46,977 nt of DNA, taken from the IMG/VR virus record IMGVR_UViG_3300010300_000025, positions 1-46,977 of that record; one strand, written 5' to 3'. The position numbers and the translations under genes are program-made. Shown here piece by piece: positions 4,161-41,130 of the stretch. The stretch's first letter is position 1. The number at the start of each line of letters is the position of its first letter. The DNA is from a virus. Under the pieces are notes generated by a model. The model worked only from the letters and a program-made list of their open reading frames with translations, was not told where the DNA came from and ran no database searches.

Positions 4161-4194
4161 CTAAATATAGTAAATATAGTTCGGGGAGGCAACT
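4161..4194 (-). promoter_or_regulatory. Early/middle-type promoter before the small membrane-protein pair
   Basis: The minus strand reads AGTTGCC, 14 nt, TTACTATATTTAG. It overlaps the stop codon of the 101-aa gene and lies 29 nt before the 32-aa ORF. Confidence 0.6.
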
Positions 4195-4498
4195 ATTCAC
4201 CCCACTTTACTTCTACAATATTATAATCAACTTTTCTACCACAATCACTATCCCAATCATCCATACCAAGCTCTAACTTAAGACCTCTGGTACGAAGTAA
4301 TTGTTGAATTTTTTCATAATCTCGTATATCAAGCACGTTCCAGTACCCAAATCTCATAGTCATATACGATAGAGATTTGTTATATTTAGTACCATCAGTA
4401 CAAACAATCTCTTTAATTCTACTAGTAGAGCCAATCTCGATTTCGTGGGAAGTTGATTCTTGAATTTTTGCTAAAGTGTTAAAATCTAATCTAGACAT
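4193..4498 (-). CDS. Hypothetical protein, 101 aa
   Basis: I do not recognise this protein. It starts MSRLDFNTLAKIQES and is a soluble, mixed-charge sequence with an acidic end (GMDDWDSDCG, VEVKWGE), no membrane segment and no metal-binding cluster. It has its own early/middle-type promoter at 4528-4561 and is followed directly by another, so it is probably a single-gene unit made early. No Shine-Dalgarno sequence precedes the ATG at 4498. Early single-gene units of unknown function in T4-like phages are often host-takeover proteins; that is only a guess from position. Confidence 0.65.
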   Translation of the reverse strand: MSRLDFNTLAKIQESTSHEIEIGSTSRIKEIVCTDGTKYNKSLSYMTMRFGYWNVLDIRDYEKIQQLLRTRGLKLELGMDDWDSDCGRKVDYNIVEVKWGE

Positions 4499-6402: not shown

Positions 6403-6413
6403 TTATAAATATC
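6403..6413 (-). promoter_or_regulatory. Late-promoter-like motif before the HNH gene
   Basis: The minus strand reads GATATTTATAA, an exact copy of the commonest form. It ends 2 nt before the ATG at 6400 and 11 nt before the alternative ATG at 6391. Confidence 0.55.
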
Positions 6414-7689
6414 AGCTGATTATATTAAAATCGTATGATTCCATATTTTTATAGTTTCTACCTGTTTTGCATTTTACAGGGAATTTCATAAGATTTGCTA
6501 TATCTTTCAATATATCGCCTTCTGATGGGTGAATGTCGAATAACAATGCATCATAAGTATATAAAATTAATTTACTCTGTTTACTGTTCAGATATTCATG
6601 AATATCTTTTATAACGATAATATTCTGCTCTGTTTCGACAGCTTGTATTATATAGTTAAATAATGTTTGTGGTTTTATATCACGACTTTGTAGATTAACT
6701 TTATAAATCTTACGTTTAAAGATTGGAGTTTCAATATAACCGTTACTCTTATAAATATCCCAAACTTTAAAAATATACTCTTTTATACGCTTAAAGAATG
6801 GTATATTTTCAAACTCCGGTGGGATTCCTCCATATAATATTTTAAATGTTATAGATTTAGATTCGTTATATTCATCTTTTGTTAGCATTTCTTTATCGAA
6901 ATAGTATTTACCAAGATAAGCATGAATAGAAGTATCTGGTAGTTTGTAATCAATTATATTTGCAATGAGTCTTAAATGGTATGCATCATAGTCAAATTCA
7001 ACAAGTTTACCATCGTTAAATCTACTGATATACTTCTCCCTTGTATTATCTTCTTTATTTAAAGCTGCATAATTAATACCACCGAAAGCATTACTCGGCC
7101 TACCAGTTATAGACCATGGATTATATTTAGAGTGTTCAAATACCTGATCTGTTGTATATAACCCAGCTGTTTCAATTTGCTTAAGCTGTGGTAGTAACAA
7201 AGTATTATATTCTTTAAACCCAGGCTCTTTATGCAGATCTAATAAAGGTAAAATTTTATCTTTTATATTACTACAATACTCTTTATGTTTAAGTAAAGGT
7301 ATAATATCGTTCAGATTATTTAATCTCCAGCTCCTATTGTAAAAGTAGTGATGAGCTGATGTCTGTAGTGATTGTAGATCTATGCTAGTAGAACTTGAGA
7401 AGTAATATAGTGCATCTATATTGATAGAATTCTTTATACCGCTACTATAAGTATAAGTGAGTTTATCATTATTTATGAAATTTAGATCGCTTACATTGAA
7501 AACTTTATCTGAATGATTTATTGGTATAATAAATTCTTTTTTCGTATTTATAATGTAGATATATAGTAAGGAAACTCTAGAATATACGCGATGTTTATTC
7601 ACATCACTGTAAATAGGTATAACAATTGATTCAGAATCTTTATACTGAGATTTTAAATCACACAAAATTTGATCGTTATCTACAATCAT
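6412..7689 (-). CDS. Divergent, short family A DNA polymerase-like protein
   Basis: The 425-aa protein carries polymerase A motifs in order: TGR at 195-197, motif A EFDYDAYHLR (Asp233), motif B KSITFKILYGG (Lys278, Phe282, Tyr286, Gly287), a helix like the family's N-x-x-IQ segment (NYIIQAVETE), and motif C YTYDALLFD (Asp380). Both metal-binding aspartates are kept. The motif A Glu (E. coli 710) is His238, the motif C Glu (883) is Ala381, and the motif B Arg appears lost. The first ~150 residues resemble a decayed 3'-5' exonuclease fold without its acidic residues. At 425 aa it is much shorter than Pol I or T7 polymerase. It may be active or an accessory protein. The ATG at 7689 follows AAAGG and an early/middle promoter (7708-7741). 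Confidence 0.75.
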   Translation of the reverse strand: MIVDNDQILCDLKSQYKDSESIVIPIYSDVNKHRVYSRVSLLYIYIINTKKEFIIPINHSDKVFNVSDLNFINNDKLTYTYSSGIKNSINIDALYYFSSSTSIDLQSLQTSAHHYFYNRSWRLNNLNDIIPLLKHKEYCSNIKDKILPLLDLHKEPGFKEYNTLLLPQLKQIETAGLYTTDQVFEHSKYNPWSITGRPSNAFGGINYAALNKEDNTREKYISRFNDGKLVEFDYDAYHLRLIANIIDYKLPDTSIHAYLGKYYFDKEMLTKDEYNESKSITFKILYGGIPPEFENIPFFKRIKEYIFKVWDIYKSNGYIETPIFKRKIYKVNLQSRDIKPQTLFNYIIQAVETEQNIIVIKDIHEYLNSKQSKLILYTYDALLFDIHPSEGDILKDIANLMKFPVKCKTGRNYKNMESYDFNIIS

Positions 7690-14779: not shown

Positions 14780-14992
14780 CTACCTTTTACGAGTCTTTCT
14801 TTGCAATTCTTTATTCTGTTTTTCCATATGCTCTTTACGTTCTTTGAACGTTTCATTTAGACATTTTATATGAAATCTGCGTAACCATACAGGCATATTG
14901 TATACATCAGAGAAAGAGAATCCACCTCCACCATTGTAAACAAGGTAGAATATCTCTTTATGTATTATGGGCTTGTAATCAAACCCTAGGCC
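14780..14992 (-). CDS. Frameshift extension of the gp26-family protein (probable tail assembly chaperone C-terminal part)
   Basis: From the GGC codon at 14992 to TAG at 14780 there is a 70-residue open frame (ending about LGFDYKPIIHKEIFYL, NGGGGFSFSDVYNMPVWLRR, then a charged helix to KTRKR). It has no ATG, GTG or TTG before the conserved-looking part; an in-frame TAA lies eight codons upstream of the T7 run, and the only Met options are late (NMPVW). It is in the +1 frame of the gp26-family gene and overlaps that gene's last codons at a TTTTTTT run (14993-14999). A +1 or -2 shift there would fuse it to the upstream protein (about 350 aa). Position before the tape measure gene matches tail chaperones that use frameshifting. 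Confidence 0.6.
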   Translation of the reverse strand, partial: GLGFDYKPIIHKEIFYLVYNGGGGFSFSDVYNMPVWLRRFHIKCLNETFKERKEHMEKQNKELQRKTRKR

Positions 14993-36817: not shown

Positions 36818-38350
36818 TTAGTTGATAGTTACGCTTACTTTTCCATAGAATTCTGGACGAACAACTTTCTTCGCGTAGCGAGTCATCACACCTTTTCTTG
36901 GAGTGAAGTTTGTTGGATCGTACACCAATGGAGTCATGATTAATGGAATGTAAGGAGCATATACAGCACCAGTTTCCAAGAATTGATTTCCACGGAATCC
37001 CATTAAGATACCTTGTTCAGTAGCTCTATATGGATTTTTGTAGATAGTGTATCTGTTAGCAAAAGAACCAACTTTAGTTACACCAGCTGCAAATTGAGTT
37101 TTAGTACCGTCAGTATCAGCACCAAATCCTGGAATTGATTCAATGATAGAAGCAATTTCTGGAGATACTACAGCAAAGTTAGCACCACCACGCATAGTAG
37201 CTTTGTGGATTTTGTTAGATACTTTTTGCATTTGGTAACCCAATGTTTGAGCCCAAGTACCGAAGTCATATCTTGCAGTTGCATTTGATACACCTTGAGG
37301 AGCATATCCATTAGCAGCTGTTTCAAGCGTAAAAGTTTCACCTGTAAATACAGCAGCGTTATCTAGCATAGATAAGATTTCTAGATCAATTTCCATTGAA
37401 ACGTATTCAGACAACATAGAAGTTAATTCTGCTTCAGCGTCAATTGAGTGGTAAGCATTCAAGTCTTGAGCGAACTCTGGTGACCAAACAACTTTCAATT
37501 TACGCGTCTTAGCGATGATAGCTTCTTGTCTCAATTCAACGTTCAATTCTGGAATACCGATATCACCAGAAGCACCTTTATCAGGGTTACCACCAGTAGT
37601 GTCTTCGAAGTCACCTCTGTTAGCAGCACCTTGATCATTAGCTGATTGGTAGTAAGCGATATCAAAAACTGAACCTGCAGCGATTGTAGCATCAGCAGTA
37701 AATGTTAGTGTAGTACCTGCAGCGTTAAGCGTTGCATTATCAGATAAAATAACACCTGATGAAGATACAGCATAGAATGCACCAGCTAAATCTGAATCAA
37801 TATTAGTTAATTGAGATACAGCAACGGTAAATGTTGCGTCATCACTAATTGCACCAGTAGATCCTGTAGTGAATGTTGCTTTGTTTAATGTGTAAGCAGC
37901 TTTTGCGCCGTCACCATCAGTAGCAGATTGGTAAAGACCACCTTGTGCTGTAGAGCCTGATGTGTTACCCATAACATCACTGTTAAGATCATGTTCACCT
38001 CTACCAGTTCCGTATTTGAAATCTAACCAGAAAACAAGACCAGATGGTAAATTCATAGGTTGAACAGAAACGAATTCTTTAGCGAAAATTTCACCGAAGA
38101 TTCTTCGTACTAATGGTAAAGCTACACCATTCCACTCTTCAGAACCAGCAGCACCAGTCTTAGAGTTTTCCGAAATAAGTTGACGAGCTTGGTTCTCTAA
38201 AAGGATAGCAGTATTATGTTTTTCATAATCTGTGTCAACACCTTCTAAAAGACCTGTCTTCTCCCATTTCGAAACGTATTGCTTAGTCTCAGCCAATTGT
38301 TGGCGGTAAGTAGACTGAGCATCGTTTAATAATTCTGAAATATTTGACAT
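36818..38350 (-). CDS. Major capsid protein (gp23-like)
   Basis: A 510-aa protein (T4 gp23 is 521 aa), second gene after the scaffold, with a strong terminator. The N-terminus MSNISELLNDAQSTYRQQLA is the helical targeting region removed or ordered during maturation. The core contains the gp23 signature EEWNGVALPLVRRIFGEIFA followed by VSVQPMNLPSGLVFWLDFKY, and later LDLEILSML-type, GFRGNQFLETGAVYAPYIPL and MTPLVYDPTNFTPRKGVMTR, all conserved in T4-like capsids. A TTG at 38362 extends the frame by four codons, but the ATG at 38350 has GGAG 8 nt upstream and is the better start. It forms the hexamers of the capsid. Confidence 0.94.
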   Translation of the reverse strand: MSNISELLNDAQSTYRQQLAETKQYVSKWEKTGLLEGVDTDYEKHNTAILLENQARQLISENSKTGAAGSEEWNGVALPLVRRIFGEIFAKEFVSVQPMNLPSGLVFWLDFKYGTGRGEHDLNSDVMGNTSGSTAQGGLYQSATDGDGAKAAYTLNKATFTTGSTGAISDDATFTVAVSQLTNIDSDLAGAFYAVSSSGVILSDNATLNAAGTTLTFTADATIAAGSVFDIAYYQSANDQGAANRGDFEDTTGGNPDKGASGDIGIPELNVELRQEAIIAKTRKLKVVWSPEFAQDLNAYHSIDAEAELTSMLSEYVSMEIDLEILSMLDNAAVFTGETFTLETAANGYAPQGVSNATARYDFGTWAQTLGYQMQKVSNKIHKATMRGGANFAVVSPEIASIIESIPGFGADTDGTKTQFAAGVTKVGSFANRYTIYKNPYRATEQGILMGFRGNQFLETGAVYAPYIPLIMTPLVYDPTNFTPRKGVMTRYAKKVVRPEFYGKVSVTIN

Positions 38351-38376
38351 TTTAGTCTCCAATATTTATTTTAATT

Positions 38377-39276
38377 TTACAATAATCCAGCTAGACGTTT
38401 CATTCTATCTGCTAGATCGTTTGATTCAACAATTACCTCTTTTGAAGGTTTTGTAGATTTTACTGCTTTAGAAGCAAGACCTTCTGCTATTTTAGCTTTT
38501 GGCGCTCTTTTATCGTTAAACGATTCAGTCAACGTAGAGTAAACTAATTTAACTTCTCTTAAGTTAGCAGCTCTATCAAAAGTTTCAATAACTTTTACTT
38601 TTTGTGCTTCACTTAAGTTGTTAGACTTGAATAATTTGTTAGAGAATAACAATTTAGCGTTCAATAAATTAACTTCTTGTAAAGTAGCTTGTAACTCTTT
38701 AATAGTAGCGTAAGCTTCTTCTAGTTCATTTACTTCTTCTAATTCTTCACCCTCTTCTTCATCAGCTTCTTCCAATGATTTGATAATCTCATCAAGATTA
38801 ATTTCCTCATCTTCAGTTAATTCAGCTGAATCTTCAACAGATTCTTCAACTGTTTCTTCTACAGATTCCTCTACAGATTCTTCAACAGCTTCTTCTTCAT
38901 CCTCATGTGCACCTTCTTCGATAGCTTCACTACCTTCAAGTTCACGGATGATAGCTTCTAGCTCTAAATCATCTTCTTCCTCTTCATCAGCTACAGCTTC
39001 TACGTCTTCTTCGTAGTTACCTTCTTCTACTTCTTCTTCATCGCCGTGTGCCATTTCAGATGCAATTTCTTCATCTTCGTGTTCACCTTCAGCGTGATAT
39101 GCATCTTCTAATTCTACTTCGTCCTCATCTTCGAGTTCTTCAGAGATTTTAGTAGATAACATAGATTGAAGTTTTGGTGTAAAAGCTTCTTCAAGAGCAA
39201 GTTTTGCGTTTGCGATAGCAGTTTCACGTACAGCTTTAGCGTCAGCGATTGCCTCTTTTAATAAGTCTTTTGACAT
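38377..39276 (-). CDS. Prohead core scaffold protein (gp22-like)
   Basis: A 299-aa, extremely acidic protein placed directly before the capsid gene. Residues 45-190 are mostly Glu and Asp in runs (EEAVEESVEESVEETVEESV), and the C-terminal part (LLNAKLLFSNKLFKSNNLSE, QKVKVIETFDRAANLREVKL) is the helical segment conserved among gp22-type scaffolds of marine T4-like phages. T4 gp22 is 269 aa. The scaffold forms the core on which gp23 assembles and is then degraded by the protease. GGGAG precedes the ATG, and the leader (39277-39418) carries two hairpins and a late-type motif. Confidence 0.85.
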   Translation of the reverse strand: MSKDLLKEAIADAKAVRETAIANAKLALEEAFTPKLQSMLSTKISEELEDEDEVELEDAYHAEGEHEDEEIASEMAHGDEEEVEEGNYEEDVEAVADEEEEDDLELEAIIRELEGSEAIEEGAHEDEEEAVEESVEESVEETVEESVEDSAELTEDEEINLDEIIKSLEEADEEEGEELEEVNELEEAYATIKELQATLQEVNLLNAKLLFSNKLFKSNNLSEAQKVKVIETFDRAANLREVKLVYSTLTESFNDKRAPKAKIAEGLASKAVKSTKPSKEVIVESNDLADRMKRLAGLL

Positions 39277-39418
39277 TATTGTCTCCCGTATATTTTAATT
39301 GGAAATAAGGTTATTAGGAACCTTAATAGAAATTTGTTATGTAGCTACACTATATTAAGAGTGATAGTGTATTTTGTACACATATAAATATATGCATATA
39401 TACTAAAGGTATAAAAAA
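39277..39418 (-). promoter_or_regulatory. Long leader of the scaffold-capsid operon with two hairpins
   Basis: This 142-nt non-coding stretch holds a late-type motif at 39382-39392 and, downstream of it on the minus strand, two simple hairpins: ACACTAT (39370-39364) with ATAGTGT (39353-39347), and AAGGTT (39324-39319) with AACCTT (39312-39307). GGGAG then precedes the ATG. The other late leaders are 20-40 nt, so this one is unusually long and structured; mRNA stabilisation of a highly expressed operon is a plausible role. Confidence 0.5.
39382..39392 (-). promoter_or_regulatory. Late-promoter-like motif before scaffold and capsid
   Basis: The minus strand reads TATATTTATAT, located just after the bS21 terminator and 105 nt before the scaffold ATG. 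Confidence 0.52.
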
Positions 39419-39445
39419 ACCGGAAAAGTTTTTAATTTTTCCGGT
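39419..39445 (-). terminator. Intrinsic terminator after the bS21 gene
   Basis: A 9-bp stem ACCGGAAAA/TTTTCCGGT around a 9-nt loop, followed on the minus strand by a T run (TTTTTTTA). It isolates the bS21 gene from the scaffold-capsid operon. Confidence 0.85.
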
Positions 39446-39478
39446 GTTTTTAATAATTTTTACTATATTTAATGTGTT

Positions 39479-39793
39479 TTAGATAGCCTTACCATCTACA
39501 ATTAGAGTCCAAGACCTATCTCCCCAAAACGCCACCTCCTTTTTGTGCTGAAGTGCTTGTCGTCGAATTGCGTCATTCATCTTCTTACGACGAGCTGTTT
39601 TAGGTTTAGTGTATTCTCTACGAGCTTTACACTCTTGTAACTTACCTGACTCTTTTAATTGTCGCTTGAAGATCCTTAAACCTTTCTCAAGCGCAAAGTC
39701 AGATGAATCTGGGATTTTTACTCCTAATGGAGAGCCCGGGTTAACGAAATCTCTAGGAGTATAACGTTTACCAGTTTTGCGTCTTTTTTGCAT
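39479..39793 (-). CDS. rpsU: Ribosomal protein bS21 homologue
   Basis: A 104-aa protein whose residues 33-84 match bS21: FALEKGLRIFKRQLKESGKL, then ECKARREYTKPKTARRKKMN and a basic helix. Cellular bS21 is usually 55-70 aa; this version has a basic N-terminal extension (MQKRRKTGKRYTPRDFVNPG) and a C-terminal extension (VAFWGDRSWTLIVDGKAI). bS21 is the small-subunit protein next to the anti-Shine-Dalgarno end of 16S rRNA and is loosely bound, so a phage copy could replace it. Phage bS21 genes are known from several marine and large phages. It is a single-gene unit with an early/middle promoter (39821-39854) and its own terminator, inside the late capsid cluster. No ribosome binding site is visible. 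Confidence 0.82.
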   Translation of the reverse strand: MQKRRKTGKRYTPRDFVNPGSPLGVKIPDSSDFALEKGLRIFKRQLKESGKLQECKARREYTKPKTARRKKMNDAIRRQALQHKKEVAFWGDRSWTLIVDGKAI

Positions 39794-39820
39794 ACTTATA
39801 ACTTAAATGATTAATAATAC

Positions 39821-39854
39821 CTAAATATAAGAAATGATTTTCTAAAAGGCAACT
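39821..39854 (-). promoter_or_regulatory. Early/middle-type promoter before the bS21 gene
   Basis: The minus strand reads AGTTGCC, 14 nt, TTCTTATATTTAG, a perfect consensus copy. It is the only one of this class inside the capsid cluster. Confidence 0.65.
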
Positions 39855-39856
39855 TT

Positions 39857-40498
39857 TTACTTAAGTTTTCCTCGTTTAGCATCTCTCTGTAAGTCTTCTA
39901 GAGCATTGATCTGATCTTGGATAGCCATTTCTAAACCAACCCCTCTATACTTAGCTTGCTTTCTTACAGCCATCATAGCAATACGCTTCTCTTCTGTAGA
40001 TGAACCTTCGTTCATGATAGCTTCCATCTTCATAGCTTTTTTGATAGCAGCATCTTTGTTATCTAAATACTCTTCTTCATCTGGTTCGTCAATACCATCA
40101 CCATCCATATCACCTTTATCAGCTTCATGGATATCATAATACTTTCCTAGCTTATTACCCATATCTTCATAAACAGATTCTAAACGTTGTTGTAGTTGAG
40201 TCATCTCTTTTGCAGTTTTTTCAAACAATTTAACAGAGTTAGATACTTCTTTCATATCTCTCTTTACAGTTACACTATCAAACCAATCTTCTGTTTCATT
40301 CAATGCTAAAGCAGATGCACCAGATGCTAATTCTTTTATAGCACCAACCATCTCTTGTATTTCATTAACTTTATAAACTGAAGAAGCAAAATTATTAAAT
40401 TTTGATACTGCATCCATGATAGCTGCTTTATCTTCTTTAGTAATTTGGCGAGTTATTTCTTGCTTTTTATTTTCTTTTAAAATATTTGTTAATTTCAT
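39857..40498 (-). CDS. Capsid-cluster protein with an EF-hand-like DxDxDG loop, 213 aa
   Basis: An unrecognised protein starting MKLTNILKENKKQEITRQIT. It is mostly helical, with probable coiled coil at about residues 75-115. Residues 130-141 (DMDGDGIDEPDE) match the DxDxDG core of EF-hand or thrombospondin-3-type calcium loops, although the usual hydrophobic residue sits one position early. The ATG at 40498 has AGGAG 6 nt upstream and follows the protease stop by 2 nt; a frame extension to 40525 overlaps the protease and lacks such a signal. Position between protease and scaffold suggests a prohead core or internal protein. Confidence 0.68.
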   Translation of the reverse strand: MKLTNILKENKKQEITRQITKEDKAAIMDAVSKFNNFASSVYKVNEIQEMVGAIKELASGASALALNETEDWFDSVTVKRDMKEVSNSVKLFEKTAKEMTQLQQRLESVYEDMGNKLGKYYDIHEADKGDMDGDGIDEPDEEEYLDNKDAAIKKAMKMEAIMNEGSSTEEKRIAMMAVRKQAKYRGVGLEMAIQDQINALEDLQRDAKRGKLK

Positions 40499-40500
40499 TA

Positions 40501-41130
40501 CTACTCCTGATTTGGTAATGCGCATTTACATGTTAAGTCACATAACATCTCATTAATAATACTATTTACTTTACTATATTTGTCAACTGTTTTATGTTGA
40601 ACTGATTCATTAATACCTGATGGTCTCATAAATGCTCCATGTGTAGATGGATTAGATACAAAATCCCAGCATACTAATTCAAAATCATCTTGAACCTCTA
40701 CTGTACCCTCTGCCATTTGCTTAACAGACCCCATACCTCTTGAACTAATACCTAAAGTAATATTCATACCTAGCAGCTCTTTAAGAATATTCCCTGCAGG
40801 TGTAGGAAGGACTTCCACCTTACCATATAAATCATTACCTTTCCACCAAACATCTAACACATTGTGTGATACATTCTGTAGGTTGACAACTGAAGATTCT
40901 GGATGATCTAATTCACCTAGAGCTCTTCGCTGTGCTATTTCTGTTTGTTTATATTTTTCTACTTCACGCTCTAATATATGTTTAGGGTAAACTCTTTCGT
41001 TTTGATTAGGTGCACCAGCTCTTTGAAGAACGCCAGTTACAATAACACGTCCATTATTAGCCACTTCTGATTCTGTAATCATAGCAGGTTCGACGTGAAA
41101 TGGTGTATAATCAACTAGTAGATTTTTCAT
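40501..41130 (-). CDS. Prohead core protease (gp21-like)
   Basis: A 209-aa serine protease of the T4 gp21 type (T4 gp21 is 212 aa), which cleaves scaffold and capsid proteins during head maturation. The motifs are the His block RRALGELDHPESSVVNLQNV, with the catalytic His, and the Ser block GISSRGMGSV; DFELVCWDFVSNPSTHGAFM supplies the conserved acidic segment. The fold is shared with herpesvirus assemblins. GGGAGAG lies before the ATG. It is 1 nt downstream of the 44-aa gene and is followed 2 nt later by the 213-aa gene, all in the late capsid operon. Confidence 0.9.
   Translation of the reverse strand: MKNLLVDYTPFHVEPAMITESEVANNGRVIVTGVLQRAGAPNQNERVYPKHILEREVEKYKQTEIAQRRALGELDHPESSVVNLQNVSHNVLDVWWKGNDLYGKVEVLPTPAGNILKELLGMNITLGISSRGMGSVKQMAEGTVEVQDDFELVCWDFVSNPSTHGAFMRPSGINESVQHKTVDKYSKVNSIINEMLCDLTCKCALPNQE

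Follow-up and report, generated by a model that had tools for sequence, protein, structure and literature searches.

A bS21 gene with its own early-type promoter motif in the head cluster of T4-like phages, and its possible bearing on Shine-Dalgarno use

Introduction

It has been previously reported that phages with predicted Bacteroidetes hosts carry genes for the ribosomal protein bS21 (clades a-e of Chen et al. 2022, PMC9723584), and replacement of the host bS21 was proposed. Those genes, like the one described here, lie beside the TerL, portal, protease and major capsid genes. They stand on the opposite strand, however, are paired with a neighbour gene, encode an aromatic residue at position 54 and are expressed late, whereas the clade described here has its bS21 on the same strand, with its own early-type promoter and terminator, and an Arg at position 54. 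The data of Chen et al. are the sole published expression data for Bacteroidetes phage bS21; they place it with the late genes, and they come from environmental snapshots of phages with bS21 on the opposite strand (PMC9723584). The Pelagibacter phage HTVC008M (Mizuno et al. 2019, PMC6375957) is likewise a T4-like phage with a bS21, and the joining of this protein to E. coli 70S ribosomes is mentioned, by way of citation, in PMC9723584. HTVC008M belongs to another host group, Pelagibacter, and in the region of it that we scanned neither promoter class of the present clade showed enrichment. Finally, the RpsU of the Microcystis phage Mel-JY01 (PP395634) is encoded at the corresponding place, with protease and capsid genes on either side; it has Lys at position 54, is shorter, lacks the C-terminal motif described below, and has a weak AGGA before its start and no own upstream promoter that we could see.

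The closest cellular system is the autoregulation of rpsU in Flavobacterium johnsoniae, in which bS21 controls access to the anti-Shine-Dalgarno (ASD) sequence (McNutt et al. 2023, PMC9976891). Bacteroidia ribosomes ignore the Shine-Dalgarno (SD) sequence because bS21, bS18 and bS6 hold the 3' tail of 16S rRNA, and Tyr54 of F. johnsoniae bS21 helps to latch the ASD (PMC9976891). With the Y54A substitution, the output of an SD reporter rises by about 70% in vivo and by a factor of 3 in vitro; strong SDs are used more with Y54A or when the C-terminal region is lost, and ribosomes with mutated bS21, or without it, prefer SD-led messages (PMC9976891). Among the genes of Flavobacteriales, rpsU is practically alone in having a strong SD (PMC9976891). 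The phage arrangement described here is the mirror image of the host pattern: rpsU of F. johnsoniae is SD-led among SD-less genes, whereas in the phage it is the late genes that are SD-led and bS21, which is without Y54, that has no SD.

Earlier publications thus cover phage bS21 as such, its position in head-gene clusters, its occurrence in phages of Bacteroidetes and the proposal that it replaces the host protein in ribosomes. In our literature search we found nothing that ties phage bS21 to the phages' own use of SDs, and no report of an isolated, early-type phage bS21 unit. The question bears on why so many aquatic phages carry bS21, and on the debate over truly specialised ribosomes in bacteria; if the reading proposed below is true, one ribosomal protein could flip a cell between translation-initiation rules.

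Results

A bS21 gene lies within the head cluster

The window, by which we mean the whole stretch of 46,977 nucleotides analysed, is the 47-kb virus record IMGVR_UViG_3300010300_000025 of a T4-like phage, described as a virus of sea bacteria. Profile matches place gp20 (portal), gp21 (protease), gp23 and TerL together in a T4-like head cluster on the minus strand. Between the gp21 prohead protease (40501..41130, Pfam/PHROG-type matches) and the gp23 major capsid protein (36818..38362, led by the SD TTGGAGACTAAAATG) lie, all on the minus strand, a 222-aa gene that is scaffold-like by position (39857..40525, profile/PHROG search), the bS21 gene (39479..39793, 104 aa) and an acidic 299-aa gene with the SD GGGAG (38377..39276). 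The bS21 gene is therefore near TerL, portal, protease and major capsid genes and on the same strand as the structural genes, which agrees with the original observation that late genes flank it on both sides. Searches of the window for Rfam families and for tRNAs returned no matches.

The open reading frame at 39479-39793 is a true bS21. The Pfam profile Ribosomal_S21 (PF01165) matched it with 36.5-37.3 bits against a cut-off of 27, the S21 core covering residues 35-79 (39557-39691, minus strand); it also matched PHROG 21469 and, at E<=1, 43 PDB sequences that were bS21 nearly throughout (best E 3e-7). The proposed bS21-like core, whose standing hung on such profile matches, is confirmed by them. 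The N- and C-terminal extensions are likewise real and shared with relatives: the C-terminal one (39482..39556, minus strand), defined from the relatives' sequences and an AlphaFold model, holds a conserved W-T-x-I-x-x-G motif that recurs in the long clade defined below. The AlphaFold model of this strongly basic protein (mean pLDDT 84) has predicted helices at residues 32-49, 51-59 and 64-91, and the long last helix is followed by a small hairpin in the C-terminal extension. Foldseek comparison of the model with the PDB gave no useful match, the protein being very small and helical, so the assignment of a helical S21 core rests on the sequence profile and the predicted helices.

Promoter, leader and terminator of the bS21 unit

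Comparison with relatives and with Flavobacterium phage immuto identified an early/middle-type promoter, TTG-N20-TATATT (39824..39852, minus strand), composed of TTG at 39850-39852, a 20-nt spacer and TATATT at 39824-39829, 36 nt before the bS21 start codon. On inspection the short leader that follows (39794..39823, minus strand) has no SD. Downstream, a terminator scan located an intrinsic terminator (39412..39445, minus strand, with a plus-strand version too) in which a CCGGAAAA/TTTTCCGG hairpin precedes a T-run on the bS21 sense strand; at -10.5 kcal/mol, it bears out the strong terminator that had been noted. Beyond it, motif comparison found the late-type promoter motif ATATTTATA of the next gene (38377-39276) at 39383..39391 on the minus strand. 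The promoter had been called perfect. A generic sigma-70 scan, however, scores it at no more than 9/12, and in this region sites of that kind were no more frequent than in shuffled sequence (22 found, 16.9 expected). Since the generic scan gave no excess over chance, we took the meaning of the promoter from the comparison with relatives and immuto instead, and by that comparison both the word perfect and the early/middle designation stand.

In the window there is no terminator between the upstream gene, which ends at 39857, and bS21. With none ahead of the bS21 promoter, bS21 is likely to be transcribed by late read-through as well as from its own promoter. The description of the gene as monocistronic therefore needs a caveat at the upstream boundary.

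The isolated unit is a property of a clade

Searching viral contigs with bS21, gp23 and gp21 queries yielded loci L002-L172, which hold 86 bS21 homologues, the window's own included. In the loci retrieved with gp21 or gp23 queries, bS21 lies on the same strand as gp21/gp23. Two types can be told apart among the homologues: a long one (about 104-123 aa), in most cases carrying the C-terminal W-T-x-I motif, and a short one (79-82 aa). Among 44 distinct long-type relatives, which are phylogenetically non-independent, a TATATT element stands 28-50 nt upstream of the bS21 start in about 40; a terminator follows bS21 in 36 (shuffled sequence, 1) and another precedes its promoter in 26 (shuffled sequence, 3). 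In the short type bS21 comes directly after the preceding gene, with an upstream terminator in 0/10 and a downstream one in 9/10. Because promoter and terminators recur in the long type, the isolated unit belongs to the whole clade and is not peculiar to the window; the suggestion that relatives might keep the same unit was borne out. One long-clade relative, L022, is a short contig with other ORFs between protease and gp23 and no bS21 there, which suggests that the gene was lost or relocated.

Two promoter classes separate bS21 from the structural genes

The promoter motifs of these phages form two classes, ATATTTATA for late structural genes and TTG-N20-TATATT for the class to which bS21 belongs. 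The late motif lies upstream of positions 14979, 16447, 19547, 20760, 36036, 41678 and 44357 in the window and is present across this T4-like group, immuto included; when reverse-complemented, it is similar to the T4 late motif TATAAATA. In the regions of T4, HTVC008M and P-SSM7 that we scanned, the motif was absent upstream of genes.

For the bS21 class we found 29 TTG-N20-TATATT sites in immuto, with a spacing of exactly N20, and none in a coding sample. The consensus reads aGTTGc...TTC.TATATTtAggtA in immuto and AGTTGCct...TTCTTATATTTaGGTA in the window's set; the two early-promoter consensus sequences are nearly identical, and unlike those of T4, HTVC008M and P-SSM7. A near-complete relative (G006) has 12 strong sites of this class, 11 outside the structural module and 1 before bS21; they precede genes for gp32, a 5'-3' exonuclease and a family-B DNA polymerase, as well as an AAA ATPase, a deoxyribonucleotidase and small ORFs without an assigned role. 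In the window itself, promoter comparison assigned early-type promoters to a DNA polymerase match (6412..7689, minus strand) and to a 101-aa gene without an SD and with no assigned function (4193..4498, minus strand). These comparisons support an early/middle type for the bS21 promoter. The promoter class argues for early or middle transcription of bS21, and the read-through argues for late transcription too; the predicted independent and probably earlier expression is therefore favoured by the separate unit and its promoter type, with late expression likely besides. The canonical Bacteroidota element TAnnTTTG was dropped as promoter evidence for Bacteroidota, the window's promoter being TATATTTAG, and the immuto comparison was used in its place.

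The aromatic latch residue is absent from the long clade

We made a gap-free alignment of the phage bS21 proteins with that of F. johnsoniae over the core. In this alignment the partner of Tyr54 is Arg77 (codon at 39563..39565, minus strand), so that the ASD-latching aromatic residue of Bacteroidia-type bS21 is absent in the window. Position 54 is Arg in nearly all members of the long clade and Ala or Asn in a few, with two aromatic exceptions (L102 and L109). It is Y or F in the short-type phages and Y, F or H in the Flavobacteriales genes that we read. As all phage bS21s of Chen et al. are aromatic at this position (PMC9723584), the present long clade differs from theirs. We rejected the notion that position 54 explains everything: short-type phages keep the aromatic residue yet use SDs, so residue 54 alone cannot decide.

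Shine-Dalgarno sequences lead late genes but not bS21

Among five R/A-type phages an SD precedes 8/40 early-promoter genes vs 35/48 late-promoter genes (Fisher p 7e-7). bS21 itself is preceded by an SD in 2/44 genes of the long type and 0/11 of the short type; there is none in the window, and the extended SD of Bacteroidia-type rpsU autoregulation is absent before the window's bS21 start. The gp23 leaders carry an SD in 29/30 members of the R-type clade vs 0/9 of the immuto clade, and the sheath leaders in 10/10 of the R-type clade; TerL leaders have none (0/22). Median SD strength before gp23 is -7.9 kcal/mol in the R type, -6.2 in the aromatic type and +1.3 in the immuto clade. The share of genes with a strong SD (dG<=-7) is 15-41% in R/A-type phages, compared with 23% in T4 and 2% in immuto, and most R-type phages are similar to T4 in this respect. 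This pattern fits the idea that ribosomes may be changed before the late messages appear. In Mel-JY01, early genes are often SD-led (10/21).

Most R/A-type phages avoid SD-like sequences within their genes (0.24-0.64), and immuto does not (1.33); the R-type phage G001 shows no such avoidance. We considered avoidance as a sign of a switch in time and rejected it, as it is equal in structural and other genes, with no early/late difference.

Two further clades, 3a and 3b, have median gp23 SD strengths of -5.9 and -5.2 kcal/mol; bS21 was not detected in the contigs searched, which are incomplete records. A strict rule by which the presence of bS21 equals SD use was therefore rejected, these bS21-less clades having SDs, if weaker ones. 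We also looked in the bS21-less phages for a phage bS18 that might do the unmasking instead, and found none. Clade 3a (L188-L202; contigs G024 and G028) has moderate SDs in its structural genes with neither bS21 nor bS18. In the bS21-less immuto (L173 / L248-L255) and in L203-L205, SDs are avoided at gene starts and internal SD-like sequences are not, as expected for SD-blind hosts.

Discussion

Gene identity, promoter class, terminator, conservation of the unit, the Arg at the latch position, the lack of SDs before early genes and bS21, and their presence before late genes are all read directly from the DNA. What they might mean together is as follows. The phage bS21 would be driven by its own host-type early/middle promoter on a message that, being SD-less, could be translated by unmodified, SD-blind Bacteroidota ribosomes. 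The protein may then replace host bS21 on the 30S platform, by analogy with its family and with the published incorporation of another phage bS21. Lacking the aromatic latch residue and having a different C-terminal tail, it would presumably no longer pin the 16S 3' tail, and the freed ASD would give the phage's late structural messages, which are SD-led, an advantage over host messages that lack an SD. Timing, ribosome entry, unmasking and selectivity are the steps that we infer here. We give the whole account, in which late phage messages gain from an ASD that an early, latch-less bS21 has freed, slightly less than an even chance. The sharper statement, that such a protein makes SD readers of SD-blind Bacteroidota ribosomes and that late phage messages are chosen in this way, is put forward tentatively, the balance leaning against it. 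The points that count against such a switch are serious: phages with aromatic-type bS21 and phages without bS21 use SDs, internal SDs are avoided to the same degree in early and late genes, the published transcripts are late, the host is inferred, and the relatives are non-independent.

The best of the competing explanations, which we regard as doubtful, is ordinary substitution: phage bS21 would keep ribosomes stocked during heavy late protein synthesis, or in variants would out-compete host bS21 or resist host shut-off, and the SD pattern would be a separate matter of host range or ancestry. Many unrelated phages have bS21 within their head genes and express it together with the late genes (PMC9723584), read-through could supply late expression in the window as well, and relatives without bS21 use SDs too, all of which speaks for substitution. 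Three observations count against it: bS21 has a separate early-type promoter that is conserved and has a terminator on one side or on both; the long clade has lost the latch residue; and bS21 is SD-less amid SD-led neighbours.

A second alternative, which we consider unlikely, is that the hosts are SD-reading bacteria and not SD-blind Bacteroidota, the Arg and the SD-led late genes mirroring the host and bS21 being a host-like copy. If the host reads SDs anyway, unmasking is not needed. E. coli bS21 has Lys at position 54, SD strength in the clade is like that of T4 and HTVC008M, and clade 3a uses SDs with no bS21. A scan of metagenome-assembled genomes (MAGs) with the protease found no direct host link, and the MAG contigs that carry kin by gp23 alignment come from mixed bins, which makes them weak host evidence. 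Many of these bins are Flavobacteriales, however, and three further observations oppose an SD-reading host: the early-promoter consensus is near that of immuto and unlike those of T4, HTVC008M and P-SSM7; immuto is among the closest cultured relatives by gp23 and gp21, with Rhodothermus phage RM378 next, and more distant, for gp23; and the early genes are SD-poor, unlike the T4 early region. Immuto-like promoters, cultured kin and MAG bins thus support a Flavobacteriia-like host, the phylum being drawn from promoters and kin only. A role off the ribosome or in the virion, for instance as an RNA- or DNA-binding protein linked to the head genes, would suit a strongly basic protein encoded within the head cluster, and packaging of phage bS21 has been raised as possible (PMC9723584), but a clear S21 profile match over the ribosome-binding core and an early-type promoter unlike those of head genes make it very improbable.

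Two observations touch on hosts of related phages. A MAG of the Flavobacteriales bacterium NAT55 (L271) contains a phage contig with a bS21 fragment and SDs before 8/17 genes. The early promoters of Mel-JY01 (L174 / L256-L265) match the canonical Bacteroidota form TTG-N-TAnnTTTG, with 16 such promoters upstream of genes against about 2 expected from coding sequence; its stated host, Microcystis, may be wrong, and its true host a Bacteroidota of the culture.

Finally, the bS21 coding region of the window contains, at 39533..39541 on the minus strand, the stretch AAGGAGGTG, a 9-nt match to the complement of the ASD, with codons conserved in close relatives. Inspection revealed no common start or frame product, and an internal start or frameshift signal was rejected. 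The stretch is read as the rare codons AAG-GAG-GTG in 5/6 related genes and as AAG-GAG-GCG in the sixth, and AGGAGG occurs in 14/46 bS21 genes of the non-aromatic type vs 4 expected from synonymous shuffles, a comparison among related, non-independent sequences. Self-regulation through AAGGAGGTG is possible.
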